DNA of 64,000 nt, taken from Chamaesiphon minutus PCC 6605. GTDB taxonomy: Bacteria; Cyanobacteriota; Cyanobacteriia; Cyanobacteriales; Chamaesiphonaceae. The notes under the pieces are model-generated. The model searched no databases. It was not told the origin of the DNA and was given only the letters and a program-made list of their open reading frames with translations. Where the stretch lies: NCBI RefSeq assembly GCF_000317145.1, contig NC_019697.1:310001-374000 (forward strand), read 5' to 3'. A program made the position numbers and the translations under genes. The first letter of the stretch is position 1. The number at the start of each line of letters is the position of its first letter. This document shows, piece after piece, positions 966 through 38,243 of the stretch.

Positions 966-1874
966 ATGTCGGAGGCGCAGCAGCCCCTCAGAGTCCCTAG
1001 GGAATTTTTGGGACCGCCTGATGACTTGAATCCCAACGTCTTCATGTTCTTTGGCGCAATTGCTTTAGTGACGATCTCGACGATCGGCTATTGGCAATGG
1101 CAGTTACCAGGTTGGTGTTGCTTCGGCTTCAATGTCTTGGCTTTACATATGGCAGGTACCGTGATTCACGATGCTTCTCATAATTCCGCTCATCCCAATC
1201 GGGTGGCAAATGCAATTATGGGACATGGTAGTGCATTGATGCTCGGATTTGCATTTCCAGTCTTTACGCGCGTACACATCCAGCACCATGCCAACGTTAA
1301 CGATCCCGATAACGATCCGGATCATTACGTCTCAACAGGTGGCCCCCTCTGGATGATTGCCGCGAGATTTTTTTATCACGAAATCTACTTTTTCCAGCGC
1401 AAACTGTGGCGGAAAAACGAACTTCTAGAATGGTTTCTCAGTAGGCTGGTAGTAGGATTGGTCATTTATTGGGCTTGTCAACACGGTTATACTGCCTACG
1501 TTTTTGATTTTTGGTTTTCACCAGCATTAGTCGTCGGCATCGCACTGGGGCTGTTTTTCGATTATCTACCCCATCGTCCCTTCAAAGAGCGCGATCGGTG
1601 GAAAAATGCTCGCGTTTATCCAGGGCCGATTTTGAACATCCTCATTTTCGGCCAAAATTATCACTTGATCCACCATTTATGGCCGTCGATTCCCTGGTAT
1701 AAGTATCAATCAGCCTACCAGGCAACCAAACCATTACTGGAATCAAAAGGATGCCATCAATCGCTAGGATTATTGCAGGGTAAAGATTTTCTTCACTTTG
1801 TTTATGACATCTTTTTAGGCATTAGGTTTCACCACAAACCCAAGCCAGTGAGTCAGGAGGCGAGCGATCCTTAG
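966..1874 (+). CDS. crtR: beta-carotene hydroxylase CrtR
   Basis: 302-residue membrane di-iron hydroxylase of the fatty-acid-desaturase superfamily. It adds 3-hydroxyl groups to beta-ionone rings (beta-carotene to zeaxanthin; echinenone to 3'-hydroxyechinenone). All three histidine clusters are present: HDASH near residue 68, HIQHH near 105 and HLIHH near 237, together with the CrtR-specific stretches GHGSALMLGFAFPVFTRVH and FFDYLPHRPF. Hydrophobic helices flank the clusters. Length and start agree with cyanobacterial CrtR (typical N-terminus MSEAQ), and AAGGAG precedes the ATG. It stands alone here, about 35 kb from the ketolase crtW and ocp, with which it cooperates metabolically. Confidence 0.95.
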   Translation: MSEAQQPLRVPREFLGPPDDLNPNVFMFFGAIALVTISTIGYWQWQLPGWCCFGFNVLALHMAGTVIHDASHNSAHPNRVANAIMGHGSALMLGFAFPVFTRVHIQHHANVNDPDNDPDHYVSTGGPLWMIAARFFYHEIYFFQRKLWRKNELLEWFLSRLVVGLVIYWACQHGYTAYVFDFWFSPALVVGIALGLFFDYLPHRPFKERDRWKNARVYPGPILNILIFGQNYHLIHHLWPSIPWYKYQSAYQATKPLLESKGCHQSLGLLQGKDFLHFVYDIFLGIRFHHKPKPVSQEASDP

Positions 1875-2587: not shown

Positions 2588-3922
2588 ATGTTAGCAACAG
2601 AAAAGTCTGTGATTCACATCTGGGGTCAACACCCATTGTCTGGAGAAGTCAAAATCAGTGGTGCGAAGAATTCCGCCTTGGTTGTCATGGCTGGTGCCTT
2701 GCTGTGCTCGACTGGATGTCGGCTCCAAAATATCCCCGGACTGGTCGATGTCGATAAGATGTGCCAGATTATTGAAGCCTTGGGAGTCAAGATCGAGCGT
2801 AATGGCGAAGTTTTGGATTTCGATACCACTGGATTCAACTGTCATACACCGCCCTTTGAATTGGTTTCCAAGTTGCGGGCGGCTTTTTTTGCGATCGGGC
2901 CGATTTTAGCGCGGTTAGGGGTTGCTAAGGTCCCATTACCAGGCGGCTGCTCGATCGGCGCGCGTCCGGTAGAATTACACGTTCGCGGCTTGCAAGCGAT
3001 GGGCGCGCATGTCGAAATCGAGCATGGAATTGTCAATGCTTTTGTGACTGGCTCGAACAAACGCCTGCAAGGGGCGAAGATATATCTGGACTACCCAAGT
3101 GTCGGCGCGACCGAAACATTGATGATGGCGGCGACGCTAGCCGAGGGTGAGACGATTTTAGAGAACGCAGCTAAGGAACCGGAAGTTGTCGATTTAGCCA
3201 ATTTCTGTATTGCTATGGGCGCGCAGATTTTCGGGGCGGGTACAGATCGGATTACGATCGTCGGCGTCGATAAGCTACACGAGGCCGATTATAGTATCAT
3301 TGCCGATCGCGTCGAAGCAGCGACATTTTTGGTGGCTGGCGCGATTACCAATTCGGAGTTGAGTCTGTATCCAGTCATCCCCGATCATCTCACCGCCGCA
3401 GTCGCGAAGTTAGATCAAATCGGCGCGAAAGTAGTCATAGATGCCCCAGATCGGATGCGGGTAATTCCCACGGGCACGCTCAAAGGGACGGATATCGAGA
3501 CCCTGCCTTATCCAGCTTTTCCGACCGATATGCAAGCCCAGTTTATGGCCATGCTCGCCGTGAGTGAAGGTAGTAGTGTCATTACCGAAACCGTATTTGA
3601 AAATCGGCTCCAACATGTGGCCGAACTCAAACGGATGGGTGCCAATATTAGGGTCAAAGGCAATCATGCGATCGTCGAAGGCGTACCGTTATTATCGGGT
3701 GCGACTGTCACCGCAACGGATTTGCGCGCTTCGGCTGCGCTGGTACTAGCTGGTTTGGCCGCTCAAGGCAAAACCACGATTCAAGACCTCCATCACCTCG
3801 ATCGCGGTTACGATTGTCTCGAAGCCAAAATGCGCAATCTCGGAGCCAAAATCGAACGGGTACGGGTCAATGCTGAGGGTGAAATTGTCTATCGCTATGC
3901 AGATGAAGTCGTGCGGGTGTAA
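2588..3922 (+). CDS. murA: UDP-N-acetylglucosamine 1-carboxyvinyltransferase MurA
   Basis: Cytoplasmic enzyme of the first committed step of peptidoglycan synthesis, transferring enolpyruvate from PEP to UDP-GlcNAc. The protein has the EPT fold signature ISGAKNSAL near the N-terminus, the PEP-binding catalytic cysteine in [11 protein letters not shown] (about residue 121 of this form) and the late motifs PTDMQAQ and [13 protein letters not shown]. The start is uncertain: ATG 2588 lacks a Shine-Dalgarno. An in-frame TTG at 2546 adds 14 residues. A strong GGAGGA (2548-2553) lies seven nt before an in-frame ATC at 2561. The function is secure; only the N-terminus is in doubt. Confidence 0.93.
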
Positions 3923-35991: not shown

Positions 35992-36774
35992 CTACTCATA
36001 CAACTGCCACCAAGGAATCTGCGGCGACTCGTGGTGTTTGCGGTGGTAGCCGAAATGATAGCAACTAATTAACGACCACCAACGCGAGCGTGGAATCGTC
36101 TCCGCGCGGTGTGGCTCGATATAGCCACCAACGGGTTCGCGATGCGGTAAAAATGTCCCAAAGTAAAATAGCTGGAGCGAACTCATTAGCGACGGGAATA
36201 CCCAAAAGCAAGCCAGATTTACAGCTTGCCACCACAATGGCTGGGGGAAGAAATAGTGACAGATTGCCACGCCAGCCGCAAACATCGAGATGATCGTTAT
36301 TACTTGCCGCCAAGTGATATGTTCGCTGACAAAATGTCCGAACCAGCCCCAAAAATGCTTTGTTTGTCCGTTATGAAAATCGGGATCGCGATCGCTGGCT
36401 GGATACTTATGGTGCTGGTGATGCTTGGCGCATAGTTGTGGGTAGTCAAATCCTGCATAAAACCACAAACAAAACTGTCCGATGGCGCGATTGACTCTTG
36501 GGGAAGGATAAATACTCCCATGCATGGCATCGTGCGCGATGATAAATAGCCCTGTGTAGATCCAGGTTTGCCAGATAAACAGAGCAATAAACCATATTGG
36601 CTGTAAAGTGTCAAGTCGGATCTGAACGCATTTCCACAGGCTAATTGCCCAGACTCCCACGATCGCGATGGCCACTTGTAATGGTAGGCTATTCTTAAGT
36701 CGAAATATCTGATTCATCGATCTGTCTTTAACATAAGAGTCTAGCCTGTCGAGCCAAAGAATGTCAAAATTCAT
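35992..36774 (-). CDS. crtW: beta-carotene ketolase CrtW
   Basis: 260-residue membrane di-iron oxygenase that introduces 4-keto groups into beta-ionone rings (echinenone, canthaxanthin). The histidine clusters are FIIAHDAMHGS, KHHQHHKYP and HFGYHRKHHESPQIPWW; YFGTFLPHR is also CrtW-like. Four hydrophobic helices. It lies divergent from ocp with 134 bp between, so the two may share control and the enzyme supplies the ketocarotenoid OCP needs. Internal ATG 36717 is a possible shorter start. Confidence 0.94.
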   Translation of the reverse strand: MNFDILWLDRLDSYVKDRSMNQIFRLKNSLPLQVAIAIVGVWAISLWKCVQIRLDTLQPIWFIALFIWQTWIYTGLFIIAHDAMHGSIYPSPRVNRAIGQFCLWFYAGFDYPQLCAKHHQHHKYPASDRDPDFHNGQTKHFWGWFGHFVSEHITWRQVITIISMFAAGVAICHYFFPQPLWWQAVNLACFWVFPSLMSSLQLFYFGTFLPHREPVGGYIEPHRAETIPRSRWWSLISCYHFGYHRKHHESPQIPWWQLYE

Positions 36775-36908
36775 CGGTCGCTAAACTATCCTTGAATCTG
36801 GATATCTTGCCTTTTAGACAGGCGTTGTTTTAATATTGTAACGAATAGTTAAGTTTTATTAACCAAAGCTGACAAACATTAATTTATCCCTTCACAGGTA
36901 ATAATACT

Positions 36909-37871
36909 ATGTCAATCTCACTCAAGTCTGCGCAATCGATTTTTTCTAACACGTTAATTGCTGATGCAGTGCCTGCCGTCACCGCAGCGTTCGAGCAACT
37001 CAGCGTTGAAGATCAATTAGCCTTACTTTGGTACGCTTACACTGAGATGGGAGTTACAATTACTCCAGCAGCCACTGGTTCGGCAAGTATGGCACTCGCA
37101 CAACCACTACTCAACGATATTAAAGCGATGCAGCCTACGGCGCAGACTCAAGTCATGACTGACTTGGCAATGCACACCGACACGCCAATTTGTCGGACTT
37201 TTACATCATTCCGGATGAATACCAAACTGGGATTTTGGTACGAACTGGGACAAATGATGAAACAGGGTTTGGTAGCACCGATTCCAGTAGGTTATCAGCC
37301 TTCTGCCGAAGCAACTGCTTTACTCGAAACCATTAAGGAACTCGATGCAGGCCAACAAATCACTGTACTGCGCAATACCGTAGTTAACATGGGTTACGAT
37401 CCCGCACGCGGTCAAGACTATGACAAACGCGAAGCACCCTTAGTTACTCCTCGTGCTTTTGCAGATCGCTCGCGCGCAGCGATCGAAGGTGTAGATAACT
37501 ATACAGTCCTGAGCTACATCGACAACATGAATGCCTTTGACTTCATGGCAGCATCGGGTTTATTTGCAGAAGAAGGCGCGCTGCAACCTCCATTCCAAGC
37601 TCCAGTTGTCGGTCAAGCGGCGATTCTCACTTACATGCGTGAAGAATGCGTAGGCTTGAAGATGTTACCAGAACGCGGTGTCGTCGAACCGATCGATGAT
37701 GGTTACACTCAAATCAAAGTTACAGGTAAAGTTCAAACCCCTTGGTTTGGTGCCAGTGTCGGTATGAACATTGCTTGGCGGTTCTTGCTCGATCCTCAAG
37801 GTAAAATCTTCTTCGTCGCGATCGATCTTCTCGCTTCGCCTAAAGAATTACTCAACCTTCGTCGCGCTTAA
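36909..37871 (+). CDS. ocp: orange carotenoid protein (OCP)
   Basis: 320-residue blue-light photoreceptor and phycobilisome quencher. The alpha-helical carotenoid-binding N-domain (about 1-165) is joined by a linker to an NTF2-like C-domain (about 195-315). Residues aligning with known functional ones are present: W41, Y44, W110, R155 (salt bridge partner), E246, Y203 and W290 (hydrogen bonds to the keto group; E244, Y201 and W288 in Synechocystis numbering). A27 replaces the arginine of Synechocystis OCP1, and the linker differs. A good terminator follows. No FRP gene is adjacent. Which OCP clade it belongs to needs a tree. Confidence 0.96.
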   Translation: MSISLKSAQSIFSNTLIADAVPAVTAAFEQLSVEDQLALLWYAYTEMGVTITPAATGSASMALAQPLLNDIKAMQPTAQTQVMTDLAMHTDTPICRTFTSFRMNTKLGFWYELGQMMKQGLVAPIPVGYQPSAEATALLETIKELDAGQQITVLRNTVVNMGYDPARGQDYDKREAPLVTPRAFADRSRAAIEGVDNYTVLSYIDNMNAFDFMAASGLFAEEGALQPPFQAPVVGQAAILTYMREECVGLKMLPERGVVEPIDDGYTQIKVTGKVQTPWFGASVGMNIAWRFLLDPQGKIFFVAIDLLASPKELLNLRRA

Positions 37872-37910
37872 GTTTTAGCTTCAACCGATTAATTAATTGC
37901 TATTCGATCG

Positions 37911-37940
37911 GGGTACCTATTTATTAGGTATCCTTTTTTT
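37911..37940 (+). terminator. rho-independent terminator of ocp
   Basis: GGGTACCTA-TTTAT-TAGGTATCC followed by seven T, 40 bp past the ocp stop. This is the best-formed terminator in the window. Confidence 0.9.
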
Positions 37941-37985
37941 GTGGCTCGATCGTGTCGGTTCTGTTTTATTTTGGGGGTTAGAGTT

Positions 37986-38243
37986 ATGACTGCTGAGGAG
38001 TTGTTGGATCGTTATGCCGCTGGGAAACGCGGTTTTAGTGGCATTAATATTCGGGAAGCGCACCTGGAAGGAGCTGTCTTGACTGGAATTAACCTTAGTC
38101 GAGCCAATCTGCAAGTTGCTAATTTGAAAAATGCCATTTTAGATAGTGCTAATCTCCGTGGTGCCGATCTTACTGGCATTGAATTGAGTGGATGTTATTT
38201 GGATGATACTATCATGCCAAACGGAGATATCATCAGTGAATAA
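37986..38243 (+). CDS. small pentapeptide-repeat protein
   Basis: 85 residues from ATG 37986. After a short helical start (MTAEELLDRYAAGKRGFSG), A(N/D)LxX units follow: LSRANLQVANLKNAILDSANL and RGADL, about eight pentapeptides forming a short right-handed quadrilateral beta-helix. The leader GGGGGTTAGAG is a poor ribosome-binding site. Function unknown; it lies after the ocp terminator and is probably a separate unit. A longer form from an in-frame start at 37941 would begin inside the terminator tail and is unlikely. Confidence 0.8.
   Translation: MTAEELLDRYAAGKRGFSGINIREAHLEGAVLTGINLSRANLQVANLKNAILDSANLRGADLTGIELSGCYLDDTIMPNGDIISE

Follow-up and report, generated by a model that had tools for sequence, protein, structure and literature searches.

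Control of orange carotenoid proteins (OCPs) by the fluorescence recovery protein (FRP) is thought to have been added only on the OCP1 branch: slow recovery and its acceleration by FRP are reported to have arisen there, virtually all genomes with an OCP1 are said to carry FRP, OCP2 is described as recovering passively, and two reconstructed ancestors that precede OCP1 need no helper for their recovery, which takes 166 s and 20 s (Steube et al., 2023; PMC10172135). The OCPX proteins now go by the name OCP3 and are divided into subclades a, b, and c (PMC12525769; PMC12059629), of which OCP3c reportedly does not cluster reliably (PMC12525769). Their kinetics vary, with OCPx1 of N. flagelliforme being fast and OCPx2 slower (reviewed in PMC12157317). 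Furthermore, two uncharacterised clades have been placed between OCPx and OCP1/OCP2, and for the Gloeobacter OCPx AlphaFold is reported to predict no contact with FRP unless Ser264 is replaced by the ancestral Tyr (Steube et al., 2023).

Here we analyze a window of 64,000 nucleotides from the genome of Chamaesiphon minutus PCC 6605 (contig NC_019697.1, positions 310,001 to 374,000) which contains a divergent crtW-ocp pair whose OCP belongs to a little-studied part of the OCP family. We propose, with a probability of roughly 0.78, that ocp encodes a photoswitchable member of the OCPX/OCP3 grade, from a distinct Chamaesiphon-Microcoleus lineage, that recovers without FRP and obtains its ketocarotenoid through the divergently encoded CrtW.

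The solved relatives of the window OCP are 54-66% identical to it, the best being PDB 7yth (65.8%), which we take to be OCPx1 of N. flagelliforme. The Nostoc OCPX1-like proteins mostly resemble the window OCP in sequence (Gln9 in 27/29 rows, Arg27 in only 1/29, Arg155 in 29/29, Tyr264 in 28/29) and, as in the window's clade, FRP was found in none of their six placed genomes, but they form a separate clade nearer to OCP1. The Gloeobacter-type OCP3a, to which we assign PDB 8a0h, is likewise marked by Gln9 (5/5), by the lack of Arg27 and Asn247, and by 0/4 placed genomes with FRP, as in the window's genome; in contrast, the window OCP is only 54% identical to 8a0h, and all five OCP3a rows have Ser264 and Asp208 where it has Tyr and Phe. 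OCP1 of the Synechocystis type shares with the window OCP the two domains, the R155/E244 bridge, the Y201/W288 ketone site and, sometimes, a crtW-like neighbor, whereas its R9, R27, F240/F241, and N247 are missing from the window OCP. OCP2, presumably represented by PDB 8pyh and 8pzk, also lacks Arg27 but differs in the linker span (28-29 residues vs. 31) and, in most or all rows, at positions 155 and 264.

The crtW-ocp pair and its products

The features of the locus are collected in Table 1. The first-pass annotation of this DNA had described a divergent pair with a 134-bp gap, for which the coordinates and both reading frames proved correct. The genome has 6.76 Mb in three contigs and is 100% complete; the named locus nearest to that of the window comes from a Chamaesiphon MAG with 91% identity.

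Table 1. Features of the crtW-ocp locus (positions in the window)
Feature	Positions	Strand	Size or structure	Description	Basis
crtW	35992-36774	-	260 aa	probable beta-carotene ketolase	NCBIfam match, CrtW tree
Intergenic region common to crtW and ocp	36775-36908		134 bp		upstream alignment
ocp	36909-37871	+	320 aa	full-length orange carotenoid protein	Carot_N and NTF2, trees, residue table
Terminator-like hairpin	37910-37934	+	10 pairs, then a T run	starts 38 bases past the ocp stop	consensus scan only
Small pentapeptide-repeat gene 3' of ocp	37986-38243	+		ATG at 37986; GTG at 37941 also possible	Pentapeptide, 2e-15

The ocp product combines in one protein the Carot_N domain (Pfam, 8e-65), the linker, and the NTF2 domain (5e-11) that define the domain architecture of the OCP family. 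Its residues R155, Y203, E246, and W290, to which the annotation had drawn attention, are all present and align with R155, Y201, E244, and W288 of PDB 5tuw, which we take to be the Synechocystis OCP, so that both the ketone-binding Y203/W290 and the inter-domain R155-E246 pair typical of the family are in place; A27 indeed aligns with R27 of 5tuw. The annotated difference in the linker is real in that the span of 31 residues exceeds that of 5tuw by two, but it falls within the range of the OCP1 rows (27-31), and because these reach 31 residues linker length is not diagnostic and was dropped as a clade marker.

The crtW product is probably a beta-carotene ketolase, as indicated by matches to Pfam FA_desaturase (9e-21) and to NCBIfam BCarotKetCrtW (1e-84; 284 bits against an equivalog cut-off of 350 bits, which was reached in only 1 of 20 related genomes) and by three histidine-rich boxes, HDAMHGS, HHQHH, and HRKHH, read from the sequence. 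By analogy with other OCP systems, we infer that this enzyme would provide echinenone or canthaxanthin, a 4-keto-carotenoid whose keto end Y203 and W290 would hold; strong blue-green light would break the R155-E246 bridge and open the protein, and the N-domain would then bind the phycobilisome and quench it. In the dark, the tree position and the absence of FRP suggest that the protein would return to the orange state without FRP. The scan that yielded the hairpin between ocp and the pentapeptide-repeat gene gave four such sites, compared with 2.3 (sd 1.7) in shuffles, so this hairpin carries little weight.

Tree position and diagnostic residues

After merging of identical proteins, 163 OCPs were analyzed with FastTree and a thinned set of 96 of these with IQ-TREE (maximum likelihood); the OCP groups were named after the tree had been seen. 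The two trees agree in placing the window OCP outside OCP1 and OCP2. In the IQ-TREE tree, the six Chamaesiphon OCPs group together (100/100) within a larger clade (17 rows, 100/97; 21 rows with FastTree) whose other members come from Microcoleus, Tychonema, related MAGs, and one Pseudanabaenaceae MAG. A branch with 100/99 support parts this clade from two Kamptonema-like rows and from three groups: OCP1 (36 rows, 100/100), OCP2 (16 rows, 100/99), and the OCPX1-like group including 7yth (13 rows, 96/87). Beyond these lie 7ytf, the five OCP3a rows, among them 8a0h, and a few isolated rows. The branching order was the same when 23 CTDH-like rows served as the root, with the caveat that many of the CTDH branches are long and that one of the 23, the OCP remnant L018, fell inside OCP1.

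When OCPX/OCP3 is taken to comprise the OCPs that branch outside OCP1 and OCP2, the window OCP belongs to it; it does not belong to a single clade with the Gloeobacter OCP3a, whose rows form a separate clade (100/99). OCPX/OCP3 is a grade in the present trees, and the sequence comparisons support the assignment of the window OCP to this grade, as neither OCP1 nor OCP2. The phylogeny thus bears out the OCPX half of the initial suggestion of an OCP2 or OCPX protein, whereas the OCP2 half fails on the separate OCP2 clade and on Arg155 and Tyr264; the topology test against OCP2 is borderline (see below). When the six Chamaesiphon rows, the only ones moved in the AU tests, were forced into the OCPX1-like group, the result was borderline as well (p = 0.0502), without rejection at 0.05.

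The residue table (163 OCP rows, 75 of OCP1 and 88 others) provides a complementary view. Arg27 is found in all 75 OCP1 rows and in one of the 88 others, and Asn247 in 75/75 and 0/88, respectively; Arg9 is equally universal in OCP1 (75/75) yet is also present in most OCP2 rows. The window OCP has Gln9, Ala27, and Gly249, the last at OCP1 position 247. Given this distribution of Arg27, the Ala27 of the window OCP is a trait of its clade, not a quirk. All 24 OCP2 rows have Phe264, where the window OCP has Tyr (Y266), and position 155, at the inter-domain salt bridge, is Gln in 18/24 and Arg in 6/24; Phe208 is common to the window OCP and 24/24 OCP2 rows. At position 264, which contacts FRP, Tyr is present in 21/21 rows of the window's clade and is replaced by Ser in 5/5 OCP3a rows. 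This Tyr is of interest because, according to Steube et al. (PMC10172135), the AlphaFold contact of Gloeobacter OCPx with FRP depends on the change of Ser264 to Tyr; with Tyr266 kept, the FRP-binding face of the window OCP may be intact.

FRP and the recovery of the protein

A search of the window's genome with the Pfam FRP model detected no FRP at E<=0.001, in agreement with the annotation, which had noted that the FRP gene is missing next to ocp and that a pentapeptide-repeat gene stands in its place. The frp gene that would be expected of an OCP1 genome was thus not detected, and neither the firm grouping with OCP1 nor the frp gene elsewhere in the genome, named at the outset as the observations that would speak against the proposal, was found. 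With the same model and threshold, FRP was found in none of nine Chamaesiphon genomes (six of which are 77-93% complete, with the window's genome and G389 at 100% and G391 at 99%), in both genomes of a sister genus of the same family, Chamaesiphonaceae, and, as a positive control, in 81 of 386 genomes across the phylum. When the threshold was relaxed to E<=10 for 12 genomes, eight of them from Chamaesiphon, three genomes of the genus gave chance-like matches at 0.24-0.49, two of which are crossed by stop codons; the third, the only match in the window's genome (E 0.24, C1:5189037), is likewise taken as chance as it sits inside a 507-residue frame.

Across the 89 genomes with placed OCPs, FRP was detected in 49 of the 50 with OCP1, the sole exception being G054, and in 0 of the 39 without OCP1, in a non-random sample that includes 26 loci (of L004-L033) because FRP was present. 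The former count agrees with the published near-universal presence of FRP in OCP1 genomes (PMC10172135). Within the window's clade, FRP was found in 0 of 21 placed genomes (six of Chamaesiphon and 15 others); locus L132, from which no full-length OCP frame was recovered, was left out, and its genome (G426) also gave no FRP match. Conversely, as a side observation, the assembly G119 matches the FRP model yet carries no more than an OCP fragment (L018). The lack of this helper in the clade genomes checked makes it most likely, judging from sequence data, that the window OCP switches itself off. Thus, recovery without FRP is suggested jointly by the position outside OCP1, by the absence of FRP from the clade genomes searched, and by the published kinetics of OCP2, OCPx, and the reconstructed ancestors.

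The protein could instead be an OCP1 whose genome lost FRP, so that it recovers slowly or with the aid of another factor. A placed OCP1 genome without an FRP match does exist (G054), and the sister genus has OCP1 together with FRP, but the window OCP lies outside the 100/100 OCP1 clade, the AU test rejects the inclusion of the Chamaesiphon rows in OCP1 (p = 0.027), and Arg9, Arg27, and Asn247, each universal in OCP1, are all missing, so that we consider this history very improbable. No greater credence is given to membership in OCP2, the second type that does not depend on FRP: the shared lack of Arg27, the common Phe208, and a borderline AU test (p = 0.0475) are consistent with it, whereas the separate OCP2 clade, the presence of both the window type and an OCP2-clade protein in Chamaesiphon G386 and G387, and the departure of R155, Y266, and M252 from the OCP2 majority argue against it.

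A third reading accepts the absence of FRP but has another protein reset the OCP through the surface around Tyr266, either the pentapeptide-repeat protein encoded behind ocp or a CTDH. When genes on the same strand that start within 1 kb behind ocp were counted (six loci with <1 kb downstream were left out), a pentapeptide gene was found in 18 of the 79 non-OCP1 loci and in none of the 68 OCP1 loci, where FRP commonly occupies this place; moreover, the FRP-contact Tyr is invariant in the window's clade, and 11 of 15 Microcoleus-side loci have a CTDH gene downstream of ocp in the same orientation. Several considerations weaken this case: the 15 Nostoc-group pentapeptide loci are close kin, so that there are only about three or four independent cases; 5/6 Chamaesiphon and 13/13 Microcoleus-side loci lack the gene; such genes are common (45 genome-wide matches in the window's genome and 132 in G039); the window's pentapeptide protein is no nearer to the ocp-linked ones (about 40-48% identity) than to an unlinked one in G039 (52%); and none of the six Chamaesiphon loci has a CTDH near ocp. 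We regard a substitute of this kind as improbable, albeit slightly less so than membership in OCP1 or OCP2, and favor the reading that the window OCP, a member of the OCPX/OCP3 grade, recovers unaided.

A broader conjecture, which we advance tentatively and at less than even odds, is that the OCPs of Chamaesiphon and Microcoleus represent a fourth lineage, as yet without a name, which arose later than OCP3a but before OCP1, OCP2, and OCPX1 separated, never had FRP, and kept the ancestral FRP-contact surface. If so, living proteins could replace the reconstructed ancestors that have been used to date the OCP-FRP alliance, and an FRP-free lineage just outside OCP1/OCP2/OCPX1 with Tyr264 kept would be a natural test of FRP binding without faster recovery. 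Within Chamaesiphonaceae, the sister genus has OCP1 with FRP whereas Chamaesiphon has the present type, in some genomes along with OCP2; the two would be a close pair for the study of a switch between photoprotection systems. Published trees probably include the lineage already, given that its tree position is similar to that of the two uncharacterised clades of Steube et al. (2023), although their identity with it is a guess. In the open-licence PMC literature we found no paper pairing Chamaesiphon with 'orange carotenoid protein', and among the matches listed for OCP, Microcoleus, and OCPX none was, from the text available, evidently about the window's clade.

Genes around ocp

The pentapeptide genes behind ocp are concentrated in the Nostoc OCPX1-like group (15/28 loci: L108, L120, L122, L142-L146, L154-L158, L163, L201), with single cases in OCP3a (1/4, L086), OCP2 (1/21, L085, weak), and Chamaesiphon (1/6) and none in the Microcoleus-side (0/13), Kamptonema-like (0/2), basal (0/3), and 7ytf-like (0/2) loci. 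Pentapeptide frames elsewhere in the loci of five groups number 12 in about 976 kb, so the single Chamaesiphon case in six could be a coincidence. In the Nostoc group the linkage exceeds chance; the full-length genes of this group are mutually orthologous (73-97%), and their position behind ocp may have been inherited as a single arrangement. A pentapeptide-repeat protein is thus a candidate partner of FRP-free OCPs, a lead rather than a finding.

In five of the six Chamaesiphon loci crtW and ocp are divergent neighbors, the gene order being ureE, DUF4168, rpsF, crtW, ocp; G386 has the same order minus crtW. Among the 15 Microcoleus-side loci, three of which (L134, L135, L137) extend <1.4 kb upstream of ocp, none showed the divergent pair, and the best reading is that this arrangement is specific to Chamaesiphon. 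The ocp-proximal ~100 bp of the intergenic region align in all six Chamaesiphon loci; because G386, which lacks crtW, is among them, this conserved element probably serves ocp. A weak lead in the same region is an HLR1-like direct repeat, scored against the RpaB box consensus: such a box reaches 16-17/18 in the ocp upstream regions of all six Chamaesiphon loci, but 4 to 28 of 500 shuffles score equally, and the window's copy (36835-36852, minus strand) lies at another place.

In the CrtW tree the OCP-linked CrtWs form a clade of their own (100/100). The window's genome has three strong CrtW-like places, including two further genes at 4.79 and 6.06 Mb, so the ocp-linked CrtW is not the only possible source of pigment. 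Nor is the pairing of crtW with ocp unique, as crtW-like genes also adjoin OCP1 genes in several other genomes. Separately, window positions 1164-1727 (plus strand), part of a 307-residue frame, give a weak match to the CrtW profile and perhaps belong to a CrtR-type carotenoid hydroxylase.

No OCP1 is among the full-length OCPs detected in Chamaesiphon; three loci (L065, L067, and L071, in G386, G387, and G393) encode a full-length OCP2-clade protein, which in G386 and G387 accompanies the window type, while the window's genome has no OCP2. In the sister genus, loci L072 and L073 (G394 and G395) encode an OCP1, and FRP lies on a different contig; a crtW-like gene sits immediately upstream of ocp in the same orientation, and its profile match contains one in-frame TAA in both genomes. 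The CTDH genes behind ocp are in L075, L126-L131, L133, L135, L137, and L138 and also in the Kamptonema-like L101 and L140; in the window's genome, a CTDH gene and an HCP gene are instead transcribed away from each other (L218, 2447-2863 on the minus and 3086-3586 on the plus strand).
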